From contig JAJYXU010000015.1 of the NCBI GenBank assembly GCA_021801605.1, positions 1 to 49,028 on the forward strand: a stretch of DNA of 49,028 nucleotides. Reading direction: 5' to 3'. The stretch comes from Bacteroidota bacterium. GTDB lineage: Bacteria; Bacteroidota; Ignavibacteria; Ignavibacteriales; Melioribacteraceae. A program made the translations under genes and the position numbers. Below are positions 9,552 to 26,576 of this stretch, piece by piece. Under the pieces are notes generated by a model that worked only from the letters and a program-made list of their open reading frames with translations, did no database searches and was not told the origin of the DNA. How positions within the stretch are numbered: the stretch's first letter is position 1; every line of letters begins with the position of its first letter.

Positions 9552-9559
9552 TATCTTTG
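9552..9559 (+). promoter_or_regulatory. TATCTTTG -7 element before the DUF4139 gene
   Basis: Exact TAnnTTTG match with a TTTATG block ending about 19 bases upstream as the -33 region. The start codon at 9581 lies 22 bases downstream. The longer reading-frame start at 9557 would overlap this box, which supports 9581 as the true start. Confidence 0.6.
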
Positions 9560-9580
9560 AACAAACAGAGAGAGAGACAT

Positions 9581-11185
9581 ATGAAAAAAATTATTATTGC
9601 TCTTTTGGCAGCGGTTTCCTTTTCTTCAATTTCATTTGCATCGGAGGAAATTGTTGTAAAACCATCCTTTTCAAATGTAAAAGTATTTTTGAGAGGCGCA
9701 CAATTGAATTATTGGGCAAAAGCTAAAGTTGAGATGGGAATGAACGATGTTGTCTTAACTGGATTGGCTTCGAACATTGATCGAAACAGTATCAATGTTT
9801 CGGCAAAAGGAGATGCGATTATAATGTCGGTAGTTCAACGCTTTGATTATTTGGGACAAGTTGAAAAGACACCACAGATAAAAAAGCTTGAGGATTCTCT
9901 CGAAGTGCAGAACAGAATACTCTCATCTAATCAAAACGAAAATGATGTTCTCAGATCTGAAATTGATCTGATCCTTGCAAATAAAAATATTGGGAATGAA
10001 AAAATTGGCGTTTCCATTTCGGAATTACAAAAGATGGGTGAATATTACCGTAAACGGCTGACCGAAATAAAAAATAAAATGTATGAAGTTTCTTTGAGCA
10101 TCAAAAAAAATCAAAAAAATATTGAGCGGATTCAAAATCAATTAAACGAATTAAATAACCAGTTGAACAAGCCGGTAAATGAAATTGTTGTAACAGTTTC
10201 GGCAAAATCTAAAGGAGCTTTAGAAGTTGATTTATCATACTTGATTTATGATGCGGGATGGCAGCCGGCTTACGATGTCCGTGTGGATAAAATAAATTCA
10301 GATGCACAGTTGAGTTACAAAGCAAACGTTTGGCAGAACAGCGGATTTGATTGGAAAGATGTTGAGATTATTCTGTCAACAAGAAATCCGGTTGCTAATA
10401 ATAATAAGCCGGAACTCAATCCATGGTTCTTAGATTTTGAACGACCGGTAGTTTATAGAGAAATGAAATTGGGCGCTCAAAAATCTATTGCTAAAGACGC
10501 ATTGCAAGTTGTATCCGAAGCAGCGGTAGCGCCTCAAGCTGAAACAATGGCAAATTATATTGATGTTGTTGAGACACAGCTTTCCGTTGAATTCACTCCG
10601 ACGATTAAATACTCCATTCCCTCGGACGGTAAACCGCATTCGGTTGCTCTTCAAGAATTTTCCGTTCCAGCGAAATATGAATACTATGCCGCACCAAAAC
10701 TTGATAACAATGCTTTTCTTGTAGCACGGCTAACAGATTGGAGTAATTATAATTTACTGCCCGGTCAGGCAAATATCTATTTCGAAAATTCTTATGTAGG
10801 ACAATCTTCAATTAATCCGACAACAACAAAAGATACTCTTACATTATCGCTCGGGCGCGATCAAAATATTTCCGTTTCCCGCGATGTGCTAAAAGATTTT
10901 TCAGAAGATAAGTTCTTGAGCAGTAATGTTGAAAGAACATTTGCTTTCGAGATCAAAGTTAAAAACAATAAAAAGGGATTGGCAAAAATTTTAGTAGAAG
11001 ATCAAATTCCAATTTCAAAGCAGGAAGATATAGTTGTAAATCTGGTTGATTCATCAGGCGCAGTTTACGATTCCGAATCCGGTAAATTGAAATGGATGAT
11101 TGATGTCGACGGCGGTAAATCTGTTGTGAGGAAATTAGTTTATTCGGTAAAATATCCAAAAGAAAAAAGAATTCAAGGATTGTAA
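9581..11185 (+). CDS. Secreted DUF4139 (MuiA-like) protein
   Basis: Family of mucoidy-inhibitor-A-like proteins, function not established. The 534 residues start with a signal peptide (IIIALLAAVSFSSISFASEE), then an N-terminal DUF4140-like beta domain with the phrase VFLRGAQLNYWAKAKVEMG, a coiled-coil from about 110 to 200 rich in Asn, Gln and Lys (IERIQNQLNELNNQLN), and the DUF4139 domain with SYLIYDAGWQPAYDVRVD and VEIILSTRNP. ATG at 9581 is chosen because it gives the signal peptide and lies just downstream of a promoter. Monocistronic, ending in a 13-bp perfect stem. Confidence 0.85.
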   Translation: MKKIIIALLAAVSFSSISFASEEIVVKPSFSNVKVFLRGAQLNYWAKAKVEMGMNDVVLTGLASNIDRNSINVSAKGDAIIMSVVQRFDYLGQVEKTPQIKKLEDSLEVQNRILSSNQNENDVLRSEIDLILANKNIGNEKIGVSISELQKMGEYYRKRLTEIKNKMYEVSLSIKKNQKNIERIQNQLNELNNQLNKPVNEIVVTVSAKSKGALEVDLSYLIYDAGWQPAYDVRVDKINSDAQLSYKANVWQNSGFDWKDVEIILSTRNPVANNNKPELNPWFLDFERPVVYREMKLGAQKSIAKDALQVVSEAAVAPQAETMANYIDVVETQLSVEFTPTIKYSIPSDGKPHSVALQEFSVPAKYEYYAAPKLDNNAFLVARLTDWSNYNLLPGQANIYFENSYVGQSSINPTTTKDTLTLSLGRDQNISVSRDVLKDFSEDKFLSSNVERTFAFEIKVKNNKKGLAKILVEDQIPISKQEDIVVNLVDSSGAVYDSESGKLKWMIDVDGGKSVVRKLVYSVKYPKEKRIQGL

Positions 11186-11266: not shown

Positions 11267-12058
11267 TCAATTTTTCTTAAAGTTTCTAAATGCAAAAGTA
11301 AATTGTTTGAAAAAATTATCCGGGAAGAATGTTTTTAATCCATATTCGGCTGCACGATCTTCCGGCATATATCCCGTTTCAAAAATCCAATCCCAAATCG
11401 CCAGCTTGGTTGCAAAATTTCGGTTGCGTCCTTTGCCGGTTGTATGATGAATCCTGTGCATCTCGGGACCATTAATGATTTTTTGCAGCCATCCTGTCTT
11501 CACACTTAAATTGGAATGAATATACATTCCCCAGACCGCGCTGATTACTCCTTTGTAAGCTATAACTTCCGGCGGCGAACCAAGCAACACAATGGGAAGA
11601 AATTCAATAGTCTGATTGATCAAAATTTCAAATGCGTGAGAACGAGAACCTGAAAGCCAGTCAACTTTTTTTGGTGAGTGATGTGCTTCGTGCAATCGCC
11701 ATAAATATTTGTTGCTGTGCTGCCATCGGTGCATCCAGTAGATATATAGATCATGCGTTATAGTGAAGAATACGAGTTGAATCCAAATTGGAATTCCGGC
11801 AAACAAATGAAAACGGGAAAGTCCGGTCGAGTTATCAATTATTCTTATGATGAATGTGAATATGATTATTCCGAGAATGTAACTCTGAGCTATTGTATAG
11901 AGAGCCAGATCGTTGAAAAAACCTTCCCTCAAAATTTTCTGATCTTTGTTATACGGGAAAATTCGTTCAAGAATTATAAACAGAAGAGCCGCGGAGATAA
12001 TAACCACGTATGAAATAATTTCAAACGGTTGAAAGCTTGCTAATAAATTATGAAACAT
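11267..12058 (-). CDS. Sterol desaturase / fatty acid hydroxylase family membrane protein
   Basis: Integral membrane di-iron hydroxylase. The 263 residues have hydrophobic segments near 12-32, 55-75, 90-105 and 150-175, and the histidine boxes of the family: H102, H110-RWQ-H114, H123-EA-H126H127 (RLHEAHHSPK) and H201-RI-H204H205 (MHRIHHTTGKG). It follows neuB by three bases on the same strand, so it is probably co-transcribed with the sugar operon and may modify a lipid carrier or lipid A; that role is inference. Substrate unknown. Confidence 0.85.
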   Translation of the reverse strand: MFHNLLASFQPFEIISYVVIISAALLFIILERIFPYNKDQKILREGFFNDLALYTIAQSYILGIIIFTFIIRIIDNSTGLSRFHLFAGIPIWIQLVFFTITHDLYIYWMHRWQHSNKYLWRLHEAHHSPKKVDWLSGSRSHAFEILINQTIEFLPIVLLGSPPEVIAYKGVISAVWGMYIHSNLSVKTGWLQKIINGPEMHRIHHTTGKGRNRNFATKLAIWDWIFETGYMPEDRAAEYGLKTFFPDNFFKQFTFAFRNFKKN

Positions 12059-12061
12059 AAT

Positions 12062-12961
12062 TTAAGCGGTGATGTTAGGTTTTACTCTTCTGAGTTTTTC
12101 TATGTTGTGATACTCACTCTTGTACACTATTTTTATTCCGTCACCGAGTGCTTTTTCAATATCACGTATATCTTGAACCATCTTCAGCATTCCATTTACT
12201 TCAACGGAAGCCGCCTGATCGGTTCCCCACATTGCGCGGTCGAGTGTGATGTGTCTTTCGATGAATGAGGCGCCGAGTGCAACCGCAGCTAATGTTGGTG
12301 CTAAGCCGGTTTCATGTCCGGAGTAACCAATTGGTACCTCGGGAAATTTTTCTTTGTATGTTCTAATCATATTAAGGTTCAGCTCTTCCAGATTGCATGG
12401 ATAATTAGAAGTCGCTTGAGCGATCATCAAATAATCGGTTCCTAAAATTTGCACAGCATCTTCAACTTCTTCGATTGTTGACATGCCCGTTGAAAGAATG
12501 ACCGGTCTGCCCGTGGTTTTAATTTTATTCAACAGTTTATGATTGGTTAAACAAGCAGATGCAACTTTGTGAATAACCGGTTTGAATTTTTCCATAAAGC
12601 TCAACGCCTCTTCATCCCATGGCGATGCAAACCAATCAATTCCTTTTTGTTTGCAGTAGCCGTCAATCTCTAAATATTCTTCAAAGCCGAACTCAACTTT
12701 ACGGCGGTATTCGATATAAGTTATTCTTCCCCATGGAGTGTCGCGTTTCATATTCCATTGATTTTTTGGAACGCAAAGTTCTGGTGTCCGCTTCTGAAAT
12801 TTAACGGCATCACAGCCCGCAAAGACAGCGCCATCAATTAATTTTTTTGCCAGTTCGACTGAACCGTTGTGATTGATTCCAATTTCCGCGATGATGTAAA
12901 CCGGTTCTCCTTCACCTATCAATCTATTGCCGACCTTAACTTTGTTTGATTTCATCATCAT
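12062..12961 (-). CDS. NeuB-like ulosonic acid synthase lacking the SAF domain
   Basis: NeuB enzymes condense phosphoenolpyruvate with an N-acyl-hexosamine-type sugar to make nine-carbon ulosonic acids. The 299 residues form the TIM barrel: IIAEIGINHNGS, AVKFQKRTPE, SPWDEEALSFM, VASACLTNHKLL, VILSTGMSTIEEV, IGYSGHETGLAPTLAAVALG and IERHITLD. Normal NeuB is about 340-350 residues with a C-terminal antifreeze-like SAF domain; here the protein stops at KLRRVKPNITA, just where SAF would begin. It overlaps the HAD phosphatase gene by 26 bases. Any of three tandem ATG codons could be the start. The substrate is probably non-standard given the neighbours. Confidence 0.85.
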   Translation of the reverse strand: MMMKSNKVKVGNRLIGEGEPVYIIAEIGINHNGSVELAKKLIDGAVFAGCDAVKFQKRTPELCVPKNQWNMKRDTPWGRITYIEYRRKVEFGFEEYLEIDGYCKQKGIDWFASPWDEEALSFMEKFKPVIHKVASACLTNHKLLNKIKTTGRPVILSTGMSTIEEVEDAVQILGTDYLMIAQATSNYPCNLEELNLNMIRTYKEKFPEVPIGYSGHETGLAPTLAAVALGASFIERHITLDRAMWGTDQAASVEVNGMLKMVQDIRDIEKALGDGIKIVYKSEYHNIEKLRRVKPNITA

Positions 12962-13505
12962 CCTTTCTATATAATTTCTTCTTTGTCTTTGCTTCGATAA
13001 TTATTTCCGCGAAGTCGCGGAAAGCGCCGTAACCACCTTTGCTTTCTACAATCAGATCCACAACGTCTTTAGCAAACTTTGTTGCATCTATAGGACAAGC
13101 GGATAAACCAACACTTTTTAAAATTTCGATATCGTTTGTATCATCGCCAATAAAAGCAATTTCTTCCGGTTTGAGATTTTTTCTTAAAAGAATTTTTTCA
13201 AGAGTTTTTTCTTTTTCATAAACGCCCATGTGCAGTTCGTCAATCTTTAATTTCTGCGCTCTGGTTTTCACTATTAATGTTTTTTCACGGGTTATTATTC
13301 CGGTTTCTACATTAACAAGTTTTCTTAAGCGCTCAACACCCATTCCGTCGCGTATAGAAAAGCGTTTCATCAATTCACCCTGCTCGGAATAATAAACGCC
13401 TGTATCAGTAAAAACGCCGTCAACGTCAGTTAAAAGCAATTTTATTTTAGAAGCGCGTTTCAGCAGTTGGTTCTTAGTCAATTTTTTTTTCATATAAAAA
13501 ACCAT
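12936..13505 (-). CDS. KdsC-like HAD phosphatase (ulosonate phosphate phosphatase)
   Basis: KdsC hydrolyses 3-deoxy-manno-octulosonate 8-phosphate; paralogues serve sialic and other ulosonic acids. The 189 residues contain the HAD nucleophile motif LLLTDVDGVFTDTG, the catalytic Lys/Thr region GIITREKT, and GDDTNDIEILK for Mg binding. Length fits KdsC (about 180). M5 is an equally good start (MKKKLTKNQ). It overlaps neuB at its 3' end and follows the SDR gene by 48 bases. Dephosphorylating the NeuB product is the natural role here; the precise substrate is inference. Confidence 0.87.
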   Translation of the reverse strand: MVFYMKKKLTKNQLLKRASKIKLLLTDVDGVFTDTGVYYSEQGELMKRFSIRDGMGVERLRKLVNVETGIITREKTLIVKTRAQKLKIDELHMGVYEKEKTLEKILLRKNLKPEEIAFIGDDTNDIEILKSVGLSACPIDATKFAKDVVDLIVESKGGYGAFRDFAEIIIEAKTKKKLYRKDDDEIKQS

Positions 13506-13553
13506 TCAATTGTTTTAAAGGTTTTAAATTTTCTCTTTCCTTCTTTCCTTTCT

Positions 13554-14357
13554 TCACCAACACGTCCATCCGCCATCCACAATAAGATTGGCGCCGGTCA
13601 TATAACTTGATGCATCACTGGCAAGAAAGATTAACGCGCCTTTATAATCTGAAGGATTAGCCATTCTTCCCAAAGGTGTTTTAGCTGAATATTTTCCAAT
13701 AAAAAATTCATCCTGATTATTTTCTACACCGCCGGGAGTTAAAGTATTAACGCGCACTCCATCCTTTCCCCAGTAAGCAGCAAGATATTTAGTAAACATT
13801 ATCACAGCGCCTTTTGTGGCGGAATAAGCCGGGGGTTTGAAGAATGACTGCGTTCCATCTTGTTTGATGTAAAGAGATTGATCAGGCGCGGTTATTCCGT
13901 AAGTTGAAGCAATATTAATAATGCTTCCTGATCTCTGTTTCGCCATTTCAATTCCAAAAATCTGTGAAGATAAAAATACTCCGGTCAAGTTTACATCAAC
14001 CGATTTTTGCCACAGTTCCAAAGGATAATTTTCAAACTTTGATTGTTCGCTTGCTGCTTTTGGATTTTCGAACATATCATTAATTGCCGCATTGTTCACC
14101 AGAATGTCGATATGTCCAAATTTCTCCAAAATTTTATTGCGCAGATTTTTTATTGATTCGGGATTAGTAACATCAAGTGCGGCACCGATCGATTCAGTTG
14201 GAAGTGTTCCGGCAAACTCAGTGCATTTAATTTCGTCAACATCAGCAACTACAACATTGGCACCGGCTTCACTCAATGCCTTGCAATGTTCTTTGCCGAT
14301 TAATCCAAGCGCACCGGTTACTATCGCTGTTCTATTTTTCAGACTAAACATTTCCAT
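13554..14357 (-). CDS. Short-chain dehydrogenase/reductase of the sugar operon
   Basis: NAD(P)-dependent oxidoreductase of 267 residues. Seen: Rossmann motif TGALGLIG at 15-22, acidic residues after VVVAD that favour NAD, NNAAIND, and the catalytic YSATKGA with Ser in SIINIAST. The C-terminus GANLIVDGGWTCW is typical of classical SDRs. Its position between a class III aminotransferase and NeuB suggests it oxidises a sugar hydroxyl to a ketone or reduces one before or after amination; that is inference. Confidence 0.88.
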   Translation of the reverse strand: MEMFSLKNRTAIVTGALGLIGKEHCKALSEAGANVVVADVDEIKCTEFAGTLPTESIGAALDVTNPESIKNLRNKILEKFGHIDILVNNAAINDMFENPKAASEQSKFENYPLELWQKSVDVNLTGVFLSSQIFGIEMAKQRSGSIINIASTYGITAPDQSLYIKQDGTQSFFKPPAYSATKGAVIMFTKYLAAYWGKDGVRVNTLTPGGVENNQDEFFIGKYSAKTPLGRMANPSDYKGALIFLASDASSYMTGANLIVDGGWTCW

Positions 14358-14371
14358 TAAAAATCCTTTTT

Positions 14372-14403
14372 ATTCTTCACTCTACACTCTTCGTTCTTCA
14401 CCC
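14372..14403. repeat. TTCTTCACTC-type low-complexity element
   Basis: Tandem variants of TTCTTCACTC, ACACTCTTCG and TTCTTCACCC fill the gap between the aminotransferase stop codon (14408) and the SDR start. It resembles other pyrimidine-rich, repeat-like spacers in this window. Whether it is a dispersed element needs a genome search. Confidence 0.4.
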
Positions 14404-14407
14404 ATAA

Positions 14408-15742
14408 CTATTTCTTCACCGGTTTCATATTGAAGTTATCAACTTTTCTGAATACGGGCTGAACCGGTTCACCCCGAAGAATTTCTATTAAATTATTTTT
14501 TTGAACAGCATTTTTCAAAACGGCAAGTGATTCTTCCATGGCTTGAAGTGTGTATTCAACATCGGCATCGCTATGAGAGAATGACATATTATGAAATCCC
14601 TGCCATAGAATACCGCGTTTAATCATCTCCTGCTGCATCAAAGATTTTTGAACAAGCGGATCGCCGGCTTTTTCTTCAAATGTTGCCATAGAACGCCAGT
14701 TGTATCCGATCGCTTTTGTATAATCCATTCCATGATTCTGAGCGATTGTGTTATATCCATTTTTTAATTTCTCCCCTCGATCGTTCAGAAATTTCGGAAC
14801 ATTTTTGTCGCGCAGTTCTTCAATAGTAGCTTTAGTAGCCGCGAGAGAAAGCGCTTCGCCTCCGAATGTTGTATAGAAGAAAATATCTTCATCGGCAAGA
14901 TCCATAATTTTTCTTTTGCCTGTAAGAATTGAAATAGGCATCCCATTGGCAACTGCTTTTGAGTACGTCGCCAGATCCGGAGTAATTCCGAAATATTCCT
15001 GGGCGCCGCCAAGTGCCATTCTGAATCCTGTCCACATCTCATCAAATATTAAAACGACATTCTTTTCTTTACAGAGATCTGCGAGCTTGTGAAGAAAATC
15101 ATCTTTCGGTTCGATGAACACAACCGGTTCAAGAATTACAGCAGCAACATCGTCATCAATAGAATTTTTTACAGAATCAATATCGTTATAGTTGAATGTA
15201 TAAGAGATTGCCTGAACGGCTTCCGGAATTCCATGATTGCGCGCTGTGACAGCGATGTACCAATCATGCCAGCCGTGATAGCCGCAACATAAAATTTTAT
15301 TCTTGTCGGTATAAGCGCGTGCAAGACGAACCGCTGCGCTTGTTGCATCAGCGCCGGTTTTGCTATATCGGACAGCTTCTGCATTCGGCACAATTTGTCT
15401 AATCATTTCGGCAACTTCAACTTCAAGCGGGTGCATCATTGAAAAAGTAATTCCGTCTTCCAATTGCTTCTTGATTGCGTCATCAACCTTTTGATAAGCA
15501 TAACCAAGCGAAAGGGGACCAACGCCCATCATGTAATCAATATATTCGTTGCCATCAACATCCCACACATGAGAACCTTTTCCTTTAACTAAATACTTCG
15601 GTGCCACTCCCTTTACCCATTGTCCCGGTCCTTTAGCAAGTGTCTGCGTTACTGATGGAATTAAACCTAGAGCGCGATTGTAGAGTTCGTCTGATTTTGT
15701 GATTGTTGGGTAATCGTTTTGTAATGAAATTTTATTTGCCAT
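14408..15742 (-). CDS. Class III (glutamate-1-semialdehyde-type) aminotransferase of the sugar operon
   Basis: PLP enzyme of 444 residues. Features: HVWDVDGNEYIDYMMGVGPL, YSKTGADATSAAVRLARA, the PLP-phosphate and Asp region VVLIFDEMWTGFR, and the Schiff-base lysine in ATYSKAVANGMPIS, as in HemL. It is not a housekeeping HemL: it sits in a sugar operon and is about 20 residues longer. Members of this subclass occur in surface-polysaccharide clusters. Amination of a keto sugar made by the transketolase and SDR is inferred. It is followed by a repeat-like spacer. Confidence 0.87.
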   Translation of the reverse strand: MANKISLQNDYPTITKSDELYNRALGLIPSVTQTLAKGPGQWVKGVAPKYLVKGKGSHVWDVDGNEYIDYMMGVGPLSLGYAYQKVDDAIKKQLEDGITFSMMHPLEVEVAEMIRQIVPNAEAVRYSKTGADATSAAVRLARAYTDKNKILCCGYHGWHDWYIAVTARNHGIPEAVQAISYTFNYNDIDSVKNSIDDDVAAVILEPVVFIEPKDDFLHKLADLCKEKNVVLIFDEMWTGFRMALGGAQEYFGITPDLATYSKAVANGMPISILTGKRKIMDLADEDIFFYTTFGGEALSLAATKATIEELRDKNVPKFLNDRGEKLKNGYNTIAQNHGMDYTKAIGYNWRSMATFEEKAGDPLVQKSLMQQEMIKRGILWQGFHNMSFSHSDADVEYTLQAMEESLAVLKNAVQKNNLIEILRGEPVQPVFRKVDNFNMKPVKK

Positions 15743-15757
15743 AGTTTCCTCTTTAAT

Positions 15758-15839
15758 GGAACGCAGATGACACAGATTTAACGGATCTTCACAGATAAAT
15801 CTGCGTGAATCTGTGTTATCAGCGTCATCCGTGTGCTAT
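15758..15839. repeat. Imperfect palindromic repeat overlapping the transketolase stop codon
   Basis: GGAACGCAGATGACACAGAT on the left and ATCTGTGTTATCAGCGTCAT on the right pair imperfectly around a central CAGATAAATCTG. The right arm (CATCCGTGTGCTATT) matches the inner arms of the elements at 20800 and 26245. It overlaps the last codons of the transketolase C-terminal gene, so the residues IAHG and the stop codon are encoded by repeat sequence. Confidence 0.8.
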
Positions 15840-16733
15840 TGTTTCTAATATTCTTTTTGCCATTAATTCGCCAGCAAATCTTTCATACTGAAGAACATCA
15901 TTAAGCAACGCCGGCTTAAACCATTTATTCATCAAAGCAAAGGGAAGAACGTTCGCAGTTTTTCTGTTCCGTAAAAGAACTTCAGCAAGAATTGTATAAA
16001 GTCCTCCGGTGATGAAATGATCTTCGACAGTAACTATTAACTTGCATTCATCAACTGCTTTCAAAATTGTTTCTTCGTCAACCGGTTTTGGTGTGCGGAT
16101 ATTTATCAATCGTACAGAAATAGCTTTTGATTCCAAAATTTCTTTTGCTTTGAATGCTTCTCCGAATAAAAACCCATAAACAAGAATTGCCACATCAGTC
16201 CCTTCGCCAAAAACTTCAGCTTTCCCTATTTCAAATTTGCTGTGTTCGACAAGCGCTTCTGTAGGATTGTAACGAATATAAAACGGTGCGGGGTGAGTGA
16301 AGACGCTCTTCAATCCTTTCAGCATATCTTCTTCATCAGCCGGGCAAAAGACATTCATCGGAGGAATGCCGCGCATGATCGAAACATCCTCTAATGCCTG
16401 ATGAGTAGGACCATTCCCATCCGATAAAAATCCCGGTACGGCGCCAACAATTTTTACCGGAAGATTAGCAATGCCAACATCTGAGCGGATGAACTCAAAT
16501 GCTCGCATTGTTAAAAATGTAGCCAGCGCGTGAACGATTGGTGTTCTTCCGCGTAATGCCAATCCTGCCGCCATTCCGATCATAGTTTGTTCAGTAATGC
16601 CGGTATCAATAAAATTATTTTTGATCAGCGGGGGAAGATTTCTGAATGCCGCTCTGTTCTCCGATGTCATAATCATGTAGCGGTCATCTTTATTTATAAG
16701 ATCGAGTAAAATATCTGCGTATGTCATTTTCAT
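15825..16733 (-). CDS. Transketolase, C-terminal (pyrimidine/TPP-activating) subunit
   Basis: Split transketolases carry the pyrimidine-binding half as a separate chain. The 302 residues show the catalytic Glu in IDTGITEQTMIGMAAGLALRG, VKIVGAVPGFLSDGNGPTHQ and a C-terminal Rossmann-like domain (VAILVYGFLFGEA, IRTPKPVDEETI). Its start overlaps the stop of the N-terminal subunit gene by four bases, so both chains are made together. The final IAHG plus stop come from a palindromic repeat, a sign that the original 3' end was altered. Its place in a ulosonic-acid operon implies two-carbon transfer to build an unusual sugar. Confidence 0.9.
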   Translation of the reverse strand: MKMTYADILLDLINKDDRYMIMTSENRAAFRNLPPLIKNNFIDTGITEQTMIGMAAGLALRGRTPIVHALATFLTMRAFEFIRSDVGIANLPVKIVGAVPGFLSDGNGPTHQALEDVSIMRGIPPMNVFCPADEEDMLKGLKSVFTHPAPFYIRYNPTEALVEHSKFEIGKAEVFGEGTDVAILVYGFLFGEAFKAKEILESKAISVRLINIRTPKPVDEETILKAVDECKLIVTVEDHFITGGLYTILAEVLLRNRKTANVLPFALMNKWFKPALLNDVLQYERFAGELMAKRILETIAHG

Positions 16734-17587
16734 CTTACCACAATTGTTTCTGAAGTTAATTTAGTCTTTTTAGCGCCGTGCAGTTCTTTTAGAAGTTGTT
16801 CTATCTCTTCCTCTTTGAAATTTACAAACCAGCGGTCGGCGCGTTTTTCAATACTAGGTAATCCTTTGCCACGTACAGTTTCAGCGATTACTACGGAGAC
16901 TTTTCCTTTCTCGAACGGAAATTTTTTAAATATCTCATCCATCTTTTCAAAATTATGACCGTTCACTTTTTTAGCTTTGCATCCAAACGTCTCAAATTTT
17001 TTGGCGAGCGGTTTTAAAGGAATCAAATCTTCCGTTTGTATGTTAGCTTGAAACTGATTGCGGTCAACAACGATCAGCAAATTATCCAATTTATAAGCTG
17101 AAGCGACAAGTAGCGCCTCCCACATCGACCCTTCGTTGAGTTCGCCATCGCCTACAACAACAACAATTTTATTCTTTTGCTTTCGCAGTTTGCAATCCAT
17201 CGCCACACCCATTGCAACAGAAAGATTATGACCAAGCGAACCGGAATGAAACTCAATGCCCGGGATATTTCTGTTAGGATGCCAGTAGATGAAATCGTTT
17301 GTCTTAAGATGGTTTTTCAAACGTTCTTCTTCAAGCCAGCCAAGTTCAACATAAGTTCCATAAAGCGCTGGCACATCGTGCCCCTTTGATAAGAAAAAAT
17401 AATCACGTTTAGGATCTTTCAAGTTCTCTTTAGAAACATTAAGAAACTCTTTGTAGAGATAGACAATTAAATCCGCGCAGGAAAGAGAGGCGCCAATAAA
17501 ACAGCCGCCGTTACCGCTCAAACGGATAATATGCTCGCGGACTCGCAGGGAAGTTTGTCCCAATTCTAGTAATTTTTGCTTTTTCAT
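16730..17587 (-). CDS. Transketolase, N-terminal (thiamine-diphosphate-binding) subunit
   Basis: The 285 residues hold the ThDP/Mg site VVVVGDGELNEGSMWEALLVAS with LLIVVDRNQFQ (GDG...N motif), plus SKGHDVPALYG and SLGHNLSVAMGVAMD, all classic transketolase signatures. Forms a heterotetramer with the C-terminal chain encoded next. It overlaps the cytidylyltransferase gene by four bases upstream and the C-terminal subunit gene by four bases downstream. A central-metabolism transketolase would normally be a single chain, so a dedicated biosynthetic role is inferred from context. Confidence 0.92.
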   Translation of the reverse strand: MKKQKLLELGQTSLRVREHIIRLSGNGGCFIGASLSCADLIVYLYKEFLNVSKENLKDPKRDYFFLSKGHDVPALYGTYVELGWLEEERLKNHLKTNDFIYWHPNRNIPGIEFHSGSLGHNLSVAMGVAMDCKLRKQKNKIVVVVGDGELNEGSMWEALLVASAYKLDNLLIVVDRNQFQANIQTEDLIPLKPLAKKFETFGCKAKKVNGHNFEKMDEIFKKFPFEKGKVSVVIAETVRGKGLPSIEKRADRWFVNFKEEEIEQLLKELHGAKKTKLTSETIVVR

Positions 17588-18387
17588 TTTAGTGAGATTT
17601 TGTTTTTGTATTCGTCAATGTGTTTTAGTTCATTCAGATGATCTTCATACCAATAATTGCCCAGGTATTTCCGGTTGATCTCTGCAATTTCCGGTTTTCG
17701 CTTAAGCAAATCTAATATTTCGTCGAGACTAAAAATAGAATTGTTTGGATAAAGTTCTTCATAAATATTCTTGATCAGCTGGTAGTCTTCCTCGAAATCA
17801 ATTGTCCACCGGTGGGAAGTTGAATAATCCAAACCAGTTTCCCACTCAATATTCGTAATACGAAATTTATCCGGATTCTCCCATATAAATGGAGTAGTGT
17901 GTTCACGTTCGAAATTTTTATCCGCTTCTTGCCAGGTCTGTTCAAGTGCTTCGAAAGAAATCACTTCAACATCATTTCCATCCGGATAGGTTGCGGGATG
18001 CAGATTGCTTACGAAATCATATTTGTCTGAGTTGTTGATATAAAACCGCAAAACTCTATCAATTACTTTTGGATCTATCAGCGGGCAATCGGATGGAATT
18101 TTTACGATCGCATCAGCGTCAAGTAATTTACCTACTTGATAATGCCGGTCAAGAAGATCTGTTAAATGTCCCCGGAAACATTTAATTTTTTCTTGCATAC
18201 ACAATTTTTCAATTTCATCATCATCTTTATTTGTTGATGTAGCAATAACAATTTCTCCAGCCAGTTCCGATGCGGCTACGCGCTCAACCATTCGAATTAG
18301 CAGCGGCTTACCAAGAATTGGCAACATAACTTTGCCCGGCAATCGGGTGGAAGACATTCGTGCTTGTATGACGGTTACAATTTTCAT
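17584..18387 (-). CDS. SpsF-like cytidylyltransferase
   Basis: Nucleotidyltransferase of the acylneuraminate cytidylyltransferase/SpsF group, expected to activate an acidic sugar with CTP. In the 267 residues: VTVIQARMSSTRLPGKVMLP (the nucleotide-binding start), DAIVKIPSDCPLIDPKVIDR (metal and sugar site), and DYSTSHRWTIDFEEDYQLI typical of SpsF. Cytoplasmic. Together with NeuB and KdsC-like genes it completes condensation, dephosphorylation and CMP activation. It overlaps the transketolase gene by four bases. SpsF-type rather than NeuA-type sequence is another hint that the sugar is unusual. Confidence 0.88.
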   Translation of the reverse strand: MKIVTVIQARMSSTRLPGKVMLPILGKPLLIRMVERVAASELAGEIVIATSTNKDDDEIEKLCMQEKIKCFRGHLTDLLDRHYQVGKLLDADAIVKIPSDCPLIDPKVIDRVLRFYINNSDKYDFVSNLHPATYPDGNDVEVISFEALEQTWQEADKNFEREHTTPFIWENPDKFRITNIEWETGLDYSTSHRWTIDFEEDYQLIKNIYEELYPNNSIFSLDEILDLLKRKPEIAEINRKYLGNYWYEDHLNELKHIDEYKNKISLK

Positions 18388-18398
18388 TTTTAATTGTA

Positions 18399-18480
18399 AT
18401 GGAACGCAGATTTTTTATGATAGTTATGATGGTTTATGATCTTAACTAATCATAAGCAATCATAATGATCAGCGTTCCAT
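18399..18480. repeat. Palindromic element with ATGGAACGC ends
   Basis: ATGGAACGC (18399-18407) pairs perfectly with GCGTTCCAT (18472-18480). The interior TATGATAGTTATGATGG pairs imperfectly with CTAATCATAAGCAATCATA. It ends three bases from the stop codon of the glycosyltransferase gene (18484) on the minus strand. The GGAACGCAGAT end is shared with the element at 15758. Confidence 0.75.
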
Positions 18481-18483
18481 TCC

Positions 18484-19494
18484 TTACTCTATTTTTAAAT
18501 CAAACTTCTGATGAATTTCTTCTAAAGTTGCTTCAGGTACTTCAACTAAGTGATTACCAATTCTCGCAATTTGTTCGGCAGATGTTCCGTTGTTCTGAAT
18601 CGGCATCAACCGTTTTAATTCTTCAATATCAAAAGCGGAGTGCACTTCTTTGCCAAAAGCGATTCCTACATACACCGTAGATGAGAACTGAGTGATCAAA
18701 GCATCGCAGTTAGCAACCATGTAATTAATGTTTCCGCTTGTATAAACCAATGCACCGGGAGCGAATTTCTTAATTTCTCGTGTTGCACGTTCAATATTTT
18801 CGTTAGGATGCAGTTTGAAAATAAGCTGTCGTCCGTTTGCAATTCTAACACAATCTTGAATTAATCTTTTTCTGTTTTCGATTTTATAAGTCTCGCGTGC
18901 ATCCGAAGTTGCAACGAGAACAAAATTCTTATGCGGGAAATCGCTATTTAAAAATTGCTGTAAGTTGTCAAAATTTGGAATTCCTGTAACTATAATCTTT
19001 TCCGCTTTTACGCCTTTGCGAATGAAAAAATCTTTATATCCATTCGAAGCCACGCAGAACAGAGTATATTTATTTGATATACCCATAGCTGATGTACTTG
19101 CGAGCCAGCGGGAAAGTTTAAGATACTTGACCAGATAGAACATTAAATTTTCCGGATCAGTCATTCCTTCTTGAACGAGGATCACCTTCTTTTTGCGAAT
19201 GTTCTTCGGCATTATTAGATCGGCGCATGTGTAAACCAAATCGTAATTGTTGTTTATGCCGCGGTAATCTATTTGAAGATTATGTTCCTTTAAATACTTC
19301 TCAGTGTTCCATCTAAAAGTACCATTTAAAATCGAGAATTTTAAATAACCTTTGTCGACAAGGAACTTGATATATCCGTCGCCGTAATATGGCGTAAAGA
19401 AGCAATCATAATCTTCCAGATGTTTAGAGATCTGATGCATCATTGAAGTCTGGTTCAGCGAACCGCATATAAAAAGAATTTTTTTCTTAGACAT
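18484..19494 (-). CDS. GT-B-like glycosyl/glycerophosphotransferase
   Basis: Not assigned to a named enzyme. The 336 residues begin with a beta strand KKILFICGSLNQTSMMHQI and contain QLIFKLHPNENIERA and ALITQFSSTVYVGIAFGKEV, a pair of motifs found in CDP-glycerol glycerophosphotransferases, KpsS-like Kdo transferases and related GT-B enzymes that use CMP/CDP-linked donors. It is the first gene of the sugar operon, 96 bases upstream of the cytidylyltransferase, so it probably transfers the sugar made by the operon. A TAAATTTG promoter box lies 24 bases upstream. Confidence 0.7.
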   Translation of the reverse strand: MSKKKILFICGSLNQTSMMHQISKHLEDYDCFFTPYYGDGYIKFLVDKGYLKFSILNGTFRWNTEKYLKEHNLQIDYRGINNNYDLVYTCADLIMPKNIRKKKVILVQEGMTDPENLMFYLVKYLKLSRWLASTSAMGISNKYTLFCVASNGYKDFFIRKGVKAEKIIVTGIPNFDNLQQFLNSDFPHKNFVLVATSDARETYKIENRKRLIQDCVRIANGRQLIFKLHPNENIERATREIKKFAPGALVYTSGNINYMVANCDALITQFSSTVYVGIAFGKEVHSAFDIEELKRLMPIQNNGTSAEQIARIGNHLVEVPEATLEEIHQKFDLKIE

Positions 19495-19525: not shown

Positions 19526-19622
19526 GGTATTTCTTTTCTAAAATGAATGAAACCTTTGAACAGTTTGGAAGAATGAGCTCTATTAATTATTATCGCAGCA
19601 ACTAAACTGATTGAGAAATGAA

Positions 19623-20681
19623 ATGAATACTTCAATTCCTCTTTTGATGATTTATGGCGCAAACGGATATTCCGCACAACTTATAATTAAAGAACTCCTT
19701 TTACGGAAAATCAGGCCGGTTCTTGCCGGAAGAAATGAAACGGCTTTGAAACACCTTGCTCAGAAATATAATTGCGAATACAAAGCGTTTGATCTTTTTG
19801 ATGAGGAAAAAGTTGATGCTGAACTCAAAGAAATTCATACGGTAATAAATTGTGCTGGTCCTTTCATACAAACCGCCAAAGATTTAATGGAAGCGTGCCT
19901 GCGTACAAAAACAAATTACTTAGACATCACTGGCGAGATGCCGGTTATGCACCTCGCGTTTTCGTTGGATGGCAAAGCTAAAGAGAGTGGTATTGTTATT
20001 TTGCCCAGTGTCGGTTTCGATATTATTCCAACCGATTGCCTTGCCAAACGTTTGAGCGAAAAGATGCCCGATGCAATTCACCTTAAACTTGGTTTTTTGA
20101 ACAAGCGTGGAAAAATTTCTCGTGGCACATTGCTTACTTCTCTTGGATTTCTTGGAGGAACCGGAAGAATTAGACGCGATGGTAAATTGATAGAATCCAA
20201 AATTGGAGAGTTTGTTGTAGATCTCAAATGGAAAAATTTTTCTTTTTCCGGTATCTCAATTCCATGGGGAGATGTGTATTCATCTTTTCACTCAACAAAA
20301 ATTCCTAATGTAGAAGTTTATCTTGCTATGCCGGGCATCGTTATTAAATTTAGAAAACTGTTTCTGTTCCTTCTAAAAATTTTAAAAATGAAATTGGTAA
20401 AAAACCTTATTTCGGGGTACATCAAGAAATATTTAACCGGACCAACTAAATCCGAACGTGATTCTGCGGCAACATATATTTGGGGACGCGTCGAAAATGC
20501 AAAAGGGAAGATGATAGAAGAAGTTTATCAGGTGATGGAAGGTTACAATCTAACAGCAAAAGGCGCAGCGGAGTGTGCCGTAAGAGTTTCAAAGAATGAA
20601 ATATTGCCGGGTACGTATACTCCATCGCTTGCATTCGGAAGTGAGTTTATGGATTTGTTTGTGATAAGGAAAATAGATTAA
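19623..20681 (+). CDS. Saccharopine dehydrogenase-like (trans-acting enoyl reductase type) protein
   Basis: An NAD(P)-binding protein of 352 residues. The N-terminus MIYGANGYSAQLIIKELLLR is a Rossmann motif, followed by RPVLAGRNE, VINCAGPF and LDITGEMPV, hallmarks of the saccharopine dehydrogenase-like/trans-enoyl-reductase group. Substrate unknown. I chose the ATG at 19623; a TTG at 19611 is in frame but adds only four residues. It diverges from the sugar operon and converges on the MORN gene. A hydrophobic stretch near 240-260 (KLFLFLLKILK) may touch the membrane. Confidence 0.82.
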   Translation: MNTSIPLLMIYGANGYSAQLIIKELLLRKIRPVLAGRNETALKHLAQKYNCEYKAFDLFDEEKVDAELKEIHTVINCAGPFIQTAKDLMEACLRTKTNYLDITGEMPVMHLAFSLDGKAKESGIVILPSVGFDIIPTDCLAKRLSEKMPDAIHLKLGFLNKRGKISRGTLLTSLGFLGGTGRIRRDGKLIESKIGEFVVDLKWKNFSFSGISIPWGDVYSSFHSTKIPNVEVYLAMPGIVIKFRKLFLFLLKILKMKLVKNLISGYIKKYLTGPTKSERDSAATYIWGRVENAKGKMIEEVYQVMEGYNLTAKGAAECAVRVSKNEILPGTYTPSLAFGSEFMDLFVIRKID

Positions 20682-22299: not shown

Positions 22300-22701
22300 A
22301 TGTTTACTACTAAAGTTAAAGTTTATTTCTATGATGCCGATCCAGCCGGAATTATTTTTTATGCCAGTTTATTCAAATTTGTTCACGCCGCCTATGAGGA
22401 TTTCTTGAGAAGTCTGCATACAGAAAGAGATTATTTCTTTGATAAAGATTTTATTCTGCCGATCATTCATGCGGAAGCAGATTATGTTAGACCCATTAAA
22501 GTCGGAGACGAACTTCGTGTTGATGTGGTTGTCAGTCTATTGAAAAATTCCTCTTTTGAATTGAGCTACAAGTTTTATAAAACAGACGGTCAGTTTACTG
22601 CCATTGCAAAGACAGTGCACGTCTGCGTTCTTAAAGATGCATTTAAGAAGATAGAATTACCAAAAGAGTTTTATGAAAAAATGAAGACTAATCTAAGTTA
22701 A
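22300..22701 (+). CDS. Hot-dog acyl-CoA thioesterase, candidate DHNA-CoA hydrolase
   Basis: 4-hydroxybenzoyl-CoA thioesterase-like protein of 133 residues. The active-site phrase YFYDADPAGIIFYASLFKFV near residues 9-28 matches the D-x-DxxGhhxH/Y pattern of the YbgC/DHNA-CoA thioesterase group. Hydrolysis of 1,4-dihydroxy-2-naphthoyl-CoA is needed between MenB and MenA, and this gene converges on menE with a 14-base overlap, so it is the best candidate for that missing step. The assignment rests on context; a general thioesterase is the alternative. Confidence 0.8.
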   Translation: MFTTKVKVYFYDADPAGIIFYASLFKFVHAAYEDFLRSLHTERDYFFDKDFILPIIHAEADYVRPIKVGDELRVDVVVSLLKNSSFELSYKFYKTDGQFTAIAKTVHVCVLKDAFKKIELPKEFYEKMKTNLS

Positions 22702-24145
22702 GTTGTTTAAAAATAGCAGCGCGCGTTACTTTTCCTAATTCGTTTCTTGGAATCTTTTCCATGGAAAAAAAAAGCTTCGGAATCTTATATCCGGCAATTT
22801 TCGTTTTTAGAAAATTTTTAATTTCATCTTCACTAAAATTGTCCGTTACTATTACCGCACAAACTATTTGTCCCCAATTTTTATCTTGAAGCGCGAAGAC
22901 AAAGGCGTCTTTAATTAACGGATGAGATTTAATGGCGGTTTCAACTTCATGTGCGCTAACATTTTCTCCGCCGGTGATTATTAAATCTTCTCTCCGTGAT
23001 GCAATGTAAAGATATCCTTCTCTATCAAGCCAACCATAATCGCCGGTGTGATACCATCCGTCTTTCAGTTCGTTGTTTGTTGTTAGTTGATCGTTGTAAT
23101 ATTCCTTAAAAAGTGATTTTGAAAATACCGCAACTTCACCTAAATCATTCTTGCTCTTGCTCATGATCTTGATCTTATTCTCGCCAAGAGGTATTCCGAC
23201 CGAATCCGGTTTAGATTTTATTTCTTTTGGAAGAAGAGCAGTTACCATCGAACACGTTTCAGTAGACCCATAAACTTTTACAATAAGCCATCCTTGATTG
23301 ACTGCACTTAAAATGAATTCTTTTTCCGACGGTCCGCCGCCGAGAAAAACGAATTTCAAATTGGTATTTGGAGAAACATTATCATTTAATAAACGAAGAA
23401 GGGTCGTGGGGACAATTGAAATATGAGACGGCGGAAATTTATGAATTGCAAGGAGGATGTCTTTATATTCAAGCGAATCCGGGAACACAACTGAAGAGCC
23501 GGTAATTAATGAGCGGACAAGAATCATAAATCCGCCAATATGATATAGTGGAAGAGAAGCAAGCCAAACATCTTCGGCTGATAAATCCGCGAACGAATCG
23601 GTTGCTTTTACGCTTTCGAGAAGCGAGTTAAATGTGTGCACAACTGCTTTCGGTTTTCCGGCGCTTCCTGAGGTAAACATGATTAAAGCGGAATGTTGAG
23701 TGCAGAATGCAGAATGCAAAATGTTGAATTTCGTACTTCGTACTTCGTACTTCGTAACTTTATTTAGGTATGTTTTATTCTGAAATATCAATGACGCGAA
23801 TTGTGATTTAAGAGTTTCATCTATGATTAAAAACTTAATGTCTGCTTGGCGAAGTTGATTCTGAATCTCCTTGGTGGTGTGACGGGTATTGAGCGGAACG
23901 GGAACCGTGCCGATGAGCCAGAGTGCATTTACAATTACAAAAAATTCGTAGTTGTGTCCAAACAATATTCCAACGTGATCTTTTTCTTTGATGCCAAGTT
24001 GATCGAAATAACTTTGTACGCCAAGACATTCTTCGTAAAATTCAGAGTAGGTAAAAGTTTTTTCTGATGTGATTATAGCTTGGTTGTTTGGCTGCATGGT
24101 CGCTTGTTCACTTAACCAGTGATTTGTATTGCCGATGCTGATCAT
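22688..24145 (-). CDS. menE: o-Succinylbenzoate-CoA ligase with repeat-derived linker insertions
   Basis: Activates o-succinylbenzoate with ATP and CoA. In the 485 residues: P-loop ALIMFTSGSAGKPKAVVHT at 153-171, adenylation core VYGSTETCSMV and WYHTGDYGWLDREGYLYIASRREDLIITGGENVSAHEVE, and catalytic Lys region AGYKIPKLFFSMEKIPRNELGKV. Residues 131-153 (TKYEVRSTKFNILHSAFCTQ and on) are translated from tandem ACGAAGT and TGCATTCTGC repeats, and residues about 322-334 (KIKIMSKSKND) from a CTTGCTCATGATCTTGATC repeat also found between genes. Both fall at variable linkers, so the enzyme is probably active. Last gene of the men operon; overlaps menC by four bases. Confidence 0.93.
   Translation of the reverse strand: MISIGNTNHWLSEQATMQPNNQAIITSEKTFTYSEFYEECLGVQSYFDQLGIKEKDHVGILFGHNYEFFVIVNALWLIGTVPVPLNTRHTTKEIQNQLRQADIKFLIIDETLKSQFASLIFQNKTYLNKVTKYEVRSTKFNILHSAFCTQHSALIMFTSGSAGKPKAVVHTFNSLLESVKATDSFADLSAEDVWLASLPLYHIGGFMILVRSLITGSSVVFPDSLEYKDILLAIHKFPPSHISIVPTTLLRLLNDNVSPNTNLKFVFLGGGPSEKEFILSAVNQGWLIVKVYGSTETCSMVTALLPKEIKSKPDSVGIPLGENKIKIMSKSKNDLGEVAVFSKSLFKEYYNDQLTTNNELKDGWYHTGDYGWLDREGYLYIASRREDLIITGGENVSAHEVETAIKSHPLIKDAFVFALQDKNWGQIVCAVIVTDNFSEDEIKNFLKTKIAGYKIPKLFFSMEKIPRNELGKVTRAAIFKQLNLD
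23145..23182. repeat. CTTGCTCATGATCTTGATC-type repeat inside menE
   Basis: The bases CTTGCTCATGATCTTGATCT plus TATTCT match, with one difference, a block at about 41317-41342 in the gap downstream of the OPT transporter start, and resemble the repeat at 35778-35865. Here it is coding (MSKSKND region). Confidence 0.65.
23691..23757. repeat. Tandem TTCGTAC / TGCAGAA repeat inside menE
   Basis: Three and a half copies of TTCGTAC (about 23730-23757) adjoin GAATGTTGAGTGCAGAATGC and AGAATGCAAAATGTTGAA. Its reading frame is kept open through menE. I recognise both sequence words as common dispersed repeats in genomes of this group, which is memory and not a search. Confidence 0.75.
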
Positions 24146-25209
24146 GAGAGTGATAAATCAAAGTGTGGTGGAAAGTTGTTATGATCAAAAAAAATCTTTC
24201 CGTTATTCACTTCATAAAGATCTCTGCAAATGTCTTGCTTGAAGTATTCCGAAGTATCGAGTCCATGAGCGAATGAATGATTTACTAAAGTTGCCAACAA
24301 AACCAAAGCACTTTTACCAACTGCACTTTCAAATGATGAAGAGATAATTACATTTTTATTTTTCTTCCAGGCTTCTTGAATTATTTGTAAAGAAGAAATA
24401 ATTCCTCCATAGATCATTGGCTTCAAGATGATAAAATTGATATAACCATCACTTATGACCTTGTGAACATCTTCGATCGAGGAGAGCGATTCATCTAAAG
24501 CGATTGGTACGGTAGAAGTTTGCGCAAGTTGCAGATTGTCATATAAGTTGCTGCATGGTTCTTCAATGTATTCAATACCGAAAATTGCAAGTCGTTCTAT
24601 AAAAGATTTTGCATTTTCAAAACTCCATTTCCGATTGGCGTCTAAACGTATTTTAATTTTGTCTCCAAATTTTTCATGTACGCTTTGAATTATTCTATAA
24701 TCCAAATCAAAATCATCTCTTCCAATTTTTATCTTGAATGTACTGTAGCTCTCATTGAATTTTTCGTTAATTCGATCCAGAATATTTTCTTCTTCGCCAA
24801 AACCGATTACAGCATTGACCCCAAATTCCGATTTTACGGTTGCAAAAGAGTCTTTAATAAAATTCTTGTTGCGCTTAATTATCAAACCTATGACGGCTTG
24901 TTCAAGTGCGAATTGAAGAGAAGGAACAAGATGAAATTCTGAGAGCAAAGCAGCGACCGAATTAAGATTTTCTTCAGCACTAAAACCGACTATCTGATAT
25001 TGCAATCCCCTTAAAATTCTTTCCGCATCTTCAATGGTTTCTAAACTAAATCCCGGAAGGGGAGAACATTCGCCGAATAAGGTATTTTCTAATTCGTCTG
25101 ATATTGAAATAATAAATCCATTTCGTTCGGTGATTGTTTGGGATGATGTTTGAAATGGGTTTTTGAGTTTGAGTGAGAAAGGGAAGTATTTGAAATTATT
25201 TATGGTCAT
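24142..25209 (-). CDS. menC: o-Succinylbenzoate synthase
   Basis: Enolase-superfamily dehydratase converting SHCHC to o-succinylbenzoate. The 355 residues have the catalytic KxK in TFKIKIGRDDFD, metal ligands in IRLDANRKWS, YIEEPCSN and ALDESLSSIED, and the second catalytic Lys in FIILKPMIYGG. Length is normal. It overlaps both menE and menA by four bases, so the three are translationally coupled. Confidence 0.95.
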   Translation of the reverse strand: MTINNFKYFPFSLKLKNPFQTSSQTITERNGFIISISDELENTLFGECSPLPGFSLETIEDAERILRGLQYQIVGFSAEENLNSVAALLSEFHLVPSLQFALEQAVIGLIIKRNKNFIKDSFATVKSEFGVNAVIGFGEEENILDRINEKFNESYSTFKIKIGRDDFDLDYRIIQSVHEKFGDKIKIRLDANRKWSFENAKSFIERLAIFGIEYIEEPCSNLYDNLQLAQTSTVPIALDESLSSIEDVHKVISDGYINFIILKPMIYGGIISSLQIIQEAWKKNKNVIISSSFESAVGKSALVLLATLVNHSFAHGLDTSEYFKQDICRDLYEVNNGKIFFDHNNFPPHFDLSLS

Positions 25210-26129
25210 AAAAGAATTCCGGCTGCAAATAGCAAACCGTACAAAGCGGAAAGTTTTGCGGTAAGCTCTAATGTTTTGTTCAATTCACTTCCGCGCAAAG
25301 TATAAATCATCTTGATCAGTTTTATTGCAAGAGGCAAACTTAAAAGTGGTAGGAAGACAAAGATTTCTTTCTTGAATGTGAAGTAAACAATAAAAAGTAT
25401 TGCATAGGATATGATCATGAAAAAAACATATTGAATACGACCGAATCGCTCACCAAAAATAACAATTAAAGTATTTTTTCCGTTTGAACGGTCTTCTTCG
25501 CGGTCACGGTAATTATTCACAACTAAAATATTTGTTATTAATGCGCCAACGGGAACCGAGGACCAAAACGCCATGGTAGTTATTTGATTCGCTTGAACGT
25601 AGTATGTTCCAACAGTTCCAATAAAACCGAAAAACAAAAATACGGCAATATCACCAAGACCATTGTATGCAAGCGGAAACGGACCCGCTGTGTAAGCAAT
25701 ACCGGCAAGGATTGAAAGCACACCTATAATTAAAATAAACCAACCGCCGAGATAAATCAGATAGAGTCCAAAGATAATACTCAATCCAAAAGAAAAATAA
25801 ATTCCGAGTTTCATTTCAAAAATAGAAAGAATACCGGAAGCAGTCGCACGCTGCGGTCCGATCCGGTCTTTTTTATCCGTTCCGTGAAGAAAATCGAAAA
25901 GATCATTTACAAAATTTGTTCCTACTTGAATAAGCAGAGCGCAGAGAAGTGCAACCAAAGCTGCGAGCGGTTTAAATTTTTCGTCATGAATTGTTATTGC
26001 AGTGCCTACAAGAACCGGAACAACAGCAGCTGCCAAAGTTCTTGGTCGGCTTGCAAGGATCCATGCATCGAATTTTGTAATTGTATTTGAAGCTGATGAT
26101 ATCATTATTTTTCTGTTAGACATAGACAA
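25206..26129 (-). CDS. menA: 1,4-Dihydroxy-2-naphthoate polyprenyltransferase
   Basis: UbiA-family membrane prenyltransferase that attaches the isoprenoid tail to DHNA. The 307 residues have about eight membrane helices, the prenyl-diphosphate motif NDLFDFLHGTDKKDR near 75-90, and a second Asp motif NNYRDREEDRSNGKNTL near 205-220. It starts after a 447-base gap that interrupts the men operon, so it may be driven by a separate promoter or by read-through. The start MSMSN could also be the third codon. Confidence 0.95.
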   Translation of the reverse strand: MSMSNRKIMISSASNTITKFDAWILASRPRTLAAAVVPVLVGTAITIHDEKFKPLAALVALLCALLIQVGTNFVNDLFDFLHGTDKKDRIGPQRATASGILSIFEMKLGIYFSFGLSIIFGLYLIYLGGWFILIIGVLSILAGIAYTAGPFPLAYNGLGDIAVFLFFGFIGTVGTYYVQANQITTMAFWSSVPVGALITNILVVNNYRDREEDRSNGKNTLIVIFGERFGRIQYVFFMIISYAILFIVYFTFKKEIFVFLPLLSLPLAIKLIKMIYTLRGSELNKTLELTAKLSALYGLLFAAGILL

Positions 26130-26201
26130 TTTCTAGTTTGATGAACTCATACATTCTTTTTTTCAAAGCACCTTTGGAAACCAAATCAACTTTATGATTT
26201 A

Positions 26202-26575: not shown

Positions 26576-26576
26576 A

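Follow-up and report, generated by a model that had tools for sequence, protein, structure and literature searches.

The stretch of DNA analysed here, hereafter the window, covers 49,028 nucleotides (positions 1 to 49,028 of contig JAJYXU010000015.1, assembly GCA_021801605.1) from a Bacteroidota bacterium of the Melioribacteraceae. Its minus strand carries nine codirectional open reading frames (ORFs) from position 19494 down to 11267, separated by -26 to +96 bases; given these gaps and the shared strand, the block reads as one operon. Both flanking ORFs (9557-11185 and 19611-20681) lie on the opposite strand, which argues for a self-standing operon and not a piece of a large polysaccharide cluster. 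Gene families were assigned with Pfam and NCBIfam models, and all genes named in a previous, sequence-only note on this DNA (the original prediction) were found as open minus-strand frames with family matches. The first gene (18484-19494) encodes GTx, a GT-B glycosyltransferase and probably a CMP-ulosonate transferase, as judged from an AlphaFold2 (AF2) model, fold matches and invariant motifs. It is followed by an SpsF-like cytidylyltransferase (CMP-ulosonate synthetase, 17584-18387; PF02348, 108.5 bits; closest solved structure 6oew) and by the two chains of a transketolase (TK), N-terminal TK-N (16730-17587; PF00456, 89.4 bits; closest solved structure 6yak, a split transketolase) and C-terminal TK-C (15825-16733; PF02779 and PF02780), together called TK-A. 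Next come a class III pyridoxal phosphate (PLP)-dependent aminotransferase, HemL-like but not HemL (14408-15742; top NCBIfam match PRK06209, 389.7 bits, cut-off 486), an SDR oxidoreductase (13554-14357; PF13561, 167.9 bits), a KdsC-like HAD phosphatase (12936-13505; top NCBIfam match KDN-9-phosphate phosphatase, 162.2 bits, under the curated cut-off of 180) and a NeuB synthase for phosphoenolpyruvate (PEP) condensation (12062-12961; PF03102, 264 bits). Two points add to the original prediction: NeuB is short (299 aa) and has no SAF domain, and the stretch it had marked also takes in a ninth gene at the tail (11267-12058), coding for an OlsE-like membrane protein of the fatty acid hydroxylase family (PF04116, 107.2 bits; OlsE model 115 bits, cut-off 475).

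Relatives of the operon (L numbers) were the best 80 of at least 588 stretches obtained by scanning genome contigs for the aminotransferase; as all were chosen through this enzyme, the scan would overlook any locus that lacks it, and closely related loci do not count independently. Carriers that can be cultured include Mucilaginibacter pineti, Puia dinghuensis and Hymenobacter setariae. Gene order was the same in most of the 80 loci, while two (L043 and L103) hold few or no other core genes. The core was counted in those 58 loci whose flanks reached at least 4.5 kb upstream and at least 3.5 kb downstream of the aminotransferase, using thresholds that also admit the full-length transketolase of L049. 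GTx was kept in 57 of them, SpsF in 58, TK-N and TK-C in 56 each, SDR and NeuB in 57 each and KdsC in 46, and all eight core genes occurred together in 43. The seven-gene neighbourhood that the original prediction had proposed to look for in other genomes thus recurs, each core gene except KdsC being found in 56-58 of the 58 loci. Record titles place the loci in Ignavibacteria, other Bacteroidota, Chloroflexota, Holophagales and one Nannocystis bin, and a plasmid of Methylomagnum (Gammaproteobacteria) bears the same block with NeuB placed ahead of the phosphatase. Recurrence across such distant phyla and on a plasmid goes far beyond chance.

Several core genes were also found fused. In 13 of the 80 loci a single ORF (473-490 aa) encodes both KdsC and NeuB, a fusion that occurs in Mucilaginibacter. 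SpsF was joined to TK-N in two loci (L060 and L072), and L106 has one frame of 802 aa that combines TK-C with the aminotransferase. These fusions tie back-end to front-end enzymes of the pathway and, together with the conserved order, bear out the view that the genes act as one pathway. They also touch on an arrangement of two linked branches, in which NeuB, KdsC and SpsF would make a CMP-sugar, an amino-polyol or amino-ketose serving as acceptor or head group would come separately from SDR, aminotransferase and transketolase, and GTx would join both. Fusion of KdsC with NeuB and of TK-C with the aminotransferase would suit this scheme, as would the lipid-type tail genes described below; the SpsF-TK-N fusion, however, spans both branches and the core is inherited as a single block, so that we regard two branches as quite unlikely. 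Two further apparent fusions were discarded: that of aminotransferase and SDR in L015 is a run of N, and for the 'KdsC fusion' of L098 a second core domain was not found. Some loci carried insertions, namely a GH97 glycosidase gene between NeuB and the hydroxylase (L029, 13605-15554), and about 7 kb of other ORFs parting the aminotransferase from SDR-KdsC-NeuB (L053, 11341-18744). In L077 it is TK-N and TK-C that are parted by such a gap.

The placing of the transketolase in the pathway was examined through its distribution. Two-chain TK-A was absent between SpsF and the aminotransferase in eight loci (L029, L031, L033, L035, L040, L047, L068 and L105), and seven of the eight genomes have another transketolase, TK-B, elsewhere in the genome; complete copies measure about 660-685 aa, and TK-B has 28-30% identity to TK-A. 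Conversely, TK-A was present and TK-B absent in G000, G104, G105 and G106 (G numbers denote genomes), and in G107 TK-A is accompanied by another TK half, which scored 122 bits. The operon slot is occupied in L041 and L049, two Bacteroidales loci, by a transketolase of 662-666 aa that is 53-58% identical to TK-B. A sample of 96 genomes, consisting of the window's and 95 relatives and sharing several genomes with the eight-locus survey, was then scored, with the aminotransferase called at 400 bits or more. It was present in 54 genomes (in two pieces in G092 and in part in G085), of which 25 had TK-A, 25 had TK-B, none had both and four had neither; TK-B calls in G047, G089 and G055 rest on partial or broken matches. 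The 42 genomes that do not carry the aminotransferase all lacked TK-B, and a single one of them, G011 (72% complete), had TK-A. Beyond these calls, TK-B matches stayed at or below 187 bits, except for a fragment of the broken G055 gene. Counted by genus, the aminotransferase occurred in 32 of 61 genera, 16 with TK-A, 15 with TK-B, none with both and one with neither. Fisher's test of TK-B against aminotransferase presence, which ignores shared ancestry, gave p values of 3e-8 by genome and 9e-6 by genus. Most TK-B genomes of the smaller survey also hold a weaker, ordinary-type transketolase match, and the window's genome has an ordinary full-length transketolase (on C148) beside TK-A. The mutual exclusivity of TK-A and TK-B and their near-strict presence with the aminotransferase make it very probable that the pathway includes a transketolase step, as had been proposed. 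Since the two types replace each other in nature, the part played by the transketolase can be tested directly. To our knowledge, none of the known ulosonic-acid routes includes a transketolase step.

The active site of TK-A departs from the canonical one. All three transketolase domains (PF00456, PF02779 and PF02780) and the thiamine diphosphate-binding motif are kept, the latter with GDG invariant in 58 sequences, and so are several ligands. In TK-N, phenylalanine occupies positions 30 (58 of 58 sequences) and 254 (56 of 58) where canonical transketolase has histidine, and in TK-C position 107 is asparagine in 61 of 61 sequences where the ordinary transketolase of the genome has aspartate; H111 and R154 are kept in all 61. 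TK-A thus lacks the canonical set of His30, His263 and Asp477 in yeast numbering (the aspartate being Asp469 in E. coli). TK-B retains both histidines and has proline at the aspartate position. Loss of the aspartate from TK-A and TK-B alike would suit a substrate whose hydroxyl pattern is not the usual one, such as an amino ketose.

NeuB and KdsC point to the type of PEP condensation. Only PF03102 was found in NeuB, and relative to PseI-type NeuB and to a provisional human NANS sequence the C-terminal part is missing. The SAF domain at this end, a feature of the UDP-sugar-derived Neu5Ac, legionaminic and pseudaminic acid pathways, is not present in the operon NeuB. Motifs KFQK, WG.(.)TY, IGYSGHETG and ERHITLD are common to NeuB and this NANS sequence. 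The best solved match of KdsC is 3e81, which we take to be the KDN-9-phosphate phosphatase of Bacteroides, and a NeuB-type synthase, a HAD phosphatase and a CMP synthetase, as in phosphosugar pathways, are all in the operon. By these sequence features NeuB and KdsC resemble the phosphosugar (NANS/KDN-9-phosphate) branch, an assignment that rests on motifs and the KdsC partner and not on overall identity. Phosphosugar routes start from hexose 6-phosphates and are not known to require NeuC, PseB or DegT enzymes. The original prediction had taken the missing NeuC, PseB and DegT enzymes as a sign of oddness; with a NeuB that has no SAF domain but NANS-like motifs, and with KdsC adjacent or fused to it, this 'no NeuC, therefore new' argument is weak. 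Compared with the animal NANS and Bacteroides KDN-9-phosphate routes, the operon shares NeuB-type PEP condensation, the HAD phosphatase and CMP transfer, but adds SDR, the class III aminotransferase and the transketolase, and its NeuB is without SAF. Outside the operon, C176 of G000 (L107, 8179-9078) encodes one more short NeuB, which shares 68% identity with that of the window and lies near the contig end by a family 2-like glycosyltransferase, with no other operon genes in 9.6 kb.

The same features bear on a KDN-type pathway with late decoration. In such a pathway NeuB would convert mannose 6-phosphate to KDN-9-phosphate or a closely related compound, which KdsC would dephosphorylate, and SDR and aminotransferase would aminate the free acid ahead of SpsF, the transketolase only tuning sugar-phosphate supply. 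KdsC is closest to KDN-9-phosphate phosphatase, NeuB shares motifs with the human NANS sequence and mannose 6-phosphate requires no additional enzymes. Nevertheless, this scheme leaves unexplained why a non-canonical transketolase tracks the aminotransferase so closely in genomes of which the window's already has an ordinary one on C148, and we consider it unlikely. Very unlikely, in our view, is an octulosonate variant, with pentose phosphate provided by the transketolase and turned by NeuB into an eight-carbon acid of the amino-Kdo type. Transketolases naturally yield pentose and tetrose phosphates, and KdsC and SpsF match Kdo-type models, under the cut-offs except for TIGR01670 (139.5 bits, cut-off 106.95); against this, NeuB falls in the sialic-acid synthase family PF03102 and a Kdo8P synthase model was not reported in the Pfam and NCBIfam results.

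Pathways from UDP-sugars fitted less well. Pseudaminic and legionaminic acid pathways have the NeuB and SpsF/PseF families in common with the operon, but the operon has a phosphatase, and no dehydratase, DegT aminotransferase or PseG-type hydrolase is among its nine genes. Likewise, no NeuC-, PseB-, PseC- or PseG-type enzyme was over the Pfam or NCBIfam cut-offs among the nine genes. The window's genome has a separate pseudaminic-acid-type locus on C32 (L108, 1707-7538), where we recognized by eye a dehydratase, a DegT-type aminotransferase, a PseG-like protein with a GNAT-like end, a PseI-type NeuB and an SpsF. With its own NeuB and SpsF, this locus gives no support to a NeuC/DegT pair elsewhere serving the operon NeuB, although NeuC was not searched genome-wide.

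The aminotransferase scored 255.9 bits against the HemL model TIGR00713 (cut-off 527.3) and is without a nine-residue loop of the presumed HemL of the window's genome, which is encoded separately on C99. Far under the cut-off and without the loop, it is not considered a glutamate-1-semialdehyde aminomutase. Its fold matches were tied between FumI and HemL, so no substrate is indicated. PHROGs matches (one aminotransferase family, one unknown) were not used.

For GTx, Pfam and NCBIfam gave weak Epimerase_2 (21.4 bits, cut-off 30.6) and CDP-glycerol transferase similarity. The AF2 model (pLDDT 93.8) has a GT-B fold, with VIA-align Z up to 18.2 for NeuC/UDP-GlcNAc 2-epimerases, about 15 for TagF/TarL and 14.1 for polysialyltransferase 5wcn. 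QEG 108-110, K227 and HPNE 229-232 were invariant in 44 sequences (the window's and 43 of 63 orthologs). Polysialyltransferase-like GT-B CMP-ulosonate transferases have D/E-D/E-G and HP motifs; H-P is invariant in GTx, QEG stands where D/E-D/E-G is expected and the fold is closer to the epimerases. A NeuC-type epimerase nevertheless seems unlikely, as by eye Gln108 apparently falls at the site of Glu117 of the epimerases, and H-P fits CMP/CDP-donor transferases. The motifs favour such a transferase, and together with the fold comparison they are in line with the donor features ascribed to this protein at the outset.

Taking these results together, we see about an even chance that the operon encodes a single pathway devoted to a CMP-activated ulosonic acid that most likely bears an amine, with an aminoshikimate-like front end and a back end of the sialic-acid type. 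For its substrates, step order, chain length, amine, product and acceptor we infer the following scheme. SDR would oxidise a hydroxyl of a sugar phosphate, and the HemL-like aminotransferase would convert the ketone to an amine. By taking off (or adding) two carbons, the transketolase would then yield an amino aldose phosphate, which NeuB would join to PEP. KdsC would strip the phosphate from the product, SpsF would attach CMP to the dephosphorylated ulosonic acid and GTx would pass the activated sugar to an acceptor, perhaps a membrane lipid that is modified or moved by products of the variable tail genes. If true, a sialic-acid-like sugar can require a transketolase for its carbon skeleton. 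Of 395 genomes sampled from the phylum, 53 (the window's included) have the aminotransferase at E ≤ 1e-120, so that an unseen surface sugar or lipid may then be common in environmental bacteria.

A precedent for such a front end is the aminoshikimate (rif) pathway, where, according to PMC8788734, an oxidoreductase, a PLP aminotransferase and the transketolase orf15 lead to imino-erythrose 4-phosphate, followed by PEP condensation. The cluster there includes orf15A and orf15B, taken to be two transketolase chains. An oxidoreductase, an aminotransferase, a transketolase and a PEP-condensing enzyme are common to both systems, by family only; 3-amino-5-hydroxybenzoic acid (AHBA) biosynthesis involves UDP-glucose, a kinase, RifH and an aromatic ring, whereas the operon has NeuB, KdsC and SpsF and no kinase among its nine genes. 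Neither aminoDAHP synthase (RifH) nor kanosamine kinase (RifN) was among these nine by Pfam and NCBIfam, the rest of the genome not having been searched. No described counterpart of the operon was found in the literature searched, including passages from PMC3694923 and PMC12342839; most subscription papers fall outside it, so that the claim of an undescribed pathway stands provisionally.

The Kdo8N system resembles the proposed scheme in that an ulosonic acid is oxidised and then aminated ahead of CMP activation. It differs in that KdnA is a DegT-family enzyme and the KdnA/KdnB route is not known to involve a transketolase, whereas the operon has a class III aminotransferase and a transketolase.

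The acceptor was approached through the genes downstream of the core. Among 61 loci with 6 kb downstream, the same strand carried a gene for a fatty acid hydroxylase in 44 loci, for a small transporter of the SMR type in 34, for an acyltransferase of the Ols type in six and for a 371-aa GNAT in two; 49 loci had some lipid-type tail gene on this strand. Regardless of strand, SMR rose to 35, GNAT to three, and 11 loci had none. In several lineages the core is followed directly by homologues of the ornithine-lipid enzymes OlsF, OlsB/OlsA and OlsE, which do not belong to it. A protein of L036 was over the OlsF cut-off (722.5 versus 620), the sole one to pass among those tested, and in the Methylomagnum tail LplT exceeded its cut-off (552 versus 297), with OlsB-like and OlsA-like genes under theirs. 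Of the 21 genomes having both an OlsF-type gene and the aminotransferase, 13 have them no more than 8 kb apart; in the window's genome the OlsF-type gene is unlinked, on C9. Because lipid-type genes recur downstream, a lipid is our best guess for the acceptor, held with low confidence. The operon could represent a new amino-ulosonic acid class, made through aminoshikimate-like chemistry with a specialised two-chain transketolase working on an amino ketose phosphate, and shown on membrane lipids in Bacteroidota, Ignavibacteria, Chloroflexota and others, in some beside ornithine-lipid genes; we put this forward as a possible but doubtful extension.

Several observations weigh against the single amino-ulosonic acid pathway and its lipid acceptor. 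Two canonical histidines are gone in TK-A yet kept in TK-B, so the two may catalyse different reactions, or ketose phosphates may not be substrates of TK-A. G099, one of the eight genomes whose loci are without TK-A, is without TK-B, and G007, G019, G041 (99% complete) and G095 bear the aminotransferase and neither transketolase. In G096, TK-B is the sole transketolase-like match beyond weak ones and may double as the housekeeping enzyme. KdsC was not found in 12 of 58 loci, and the 38% identity of NeuB to the provisional human NANS sequence barely exceeds the 35% shared with the PseI-type NeuB of its own genome. A same-strand lipid-type tail is missing in 12 of 61 loci and OlsF-type genes were not enriched with the aminotransferase (21 of 54 versus 11 of 42 genomes, p 0.28). 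These two results leave the lipid acceptor weakly supported, and the genome counts rule out OlsF as a universal operon partner.

Beyond the conserved loci, 38 plasmid records matched the aminotransferase at E ≤ 1e-60. Of the four examined among the 15 matches listed, only that of Methylomagnum carried the block; L110-L112 had no other core gene save one weak SDR match. L111 and L112 are Sinorhizobium and Rhizobium megaplasmids with a more distant aminotransferase (38-41%) and without the operon, the one in L111 lying, by eye, near glycosyltransferase-like ORFs. In a phage collection, 14 records matched at 29.7-35.9%; H20, H21 and H23 of this collection carry an annotated HemL-type aminotransferase and possibly represent host DNA. 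Scans for promoter-like sites (24 versus 24.7 expected by chance) and terminator-like sites (3 versus 7.6 in shuffles) were at chance level and below it, respectively, and were not used. Elsewhere in the window, four codirectional genes at 22688-27410 resemble, by eye, menaquinone biosynthesis genes (MenE, MenC, MenA and MenB-like).

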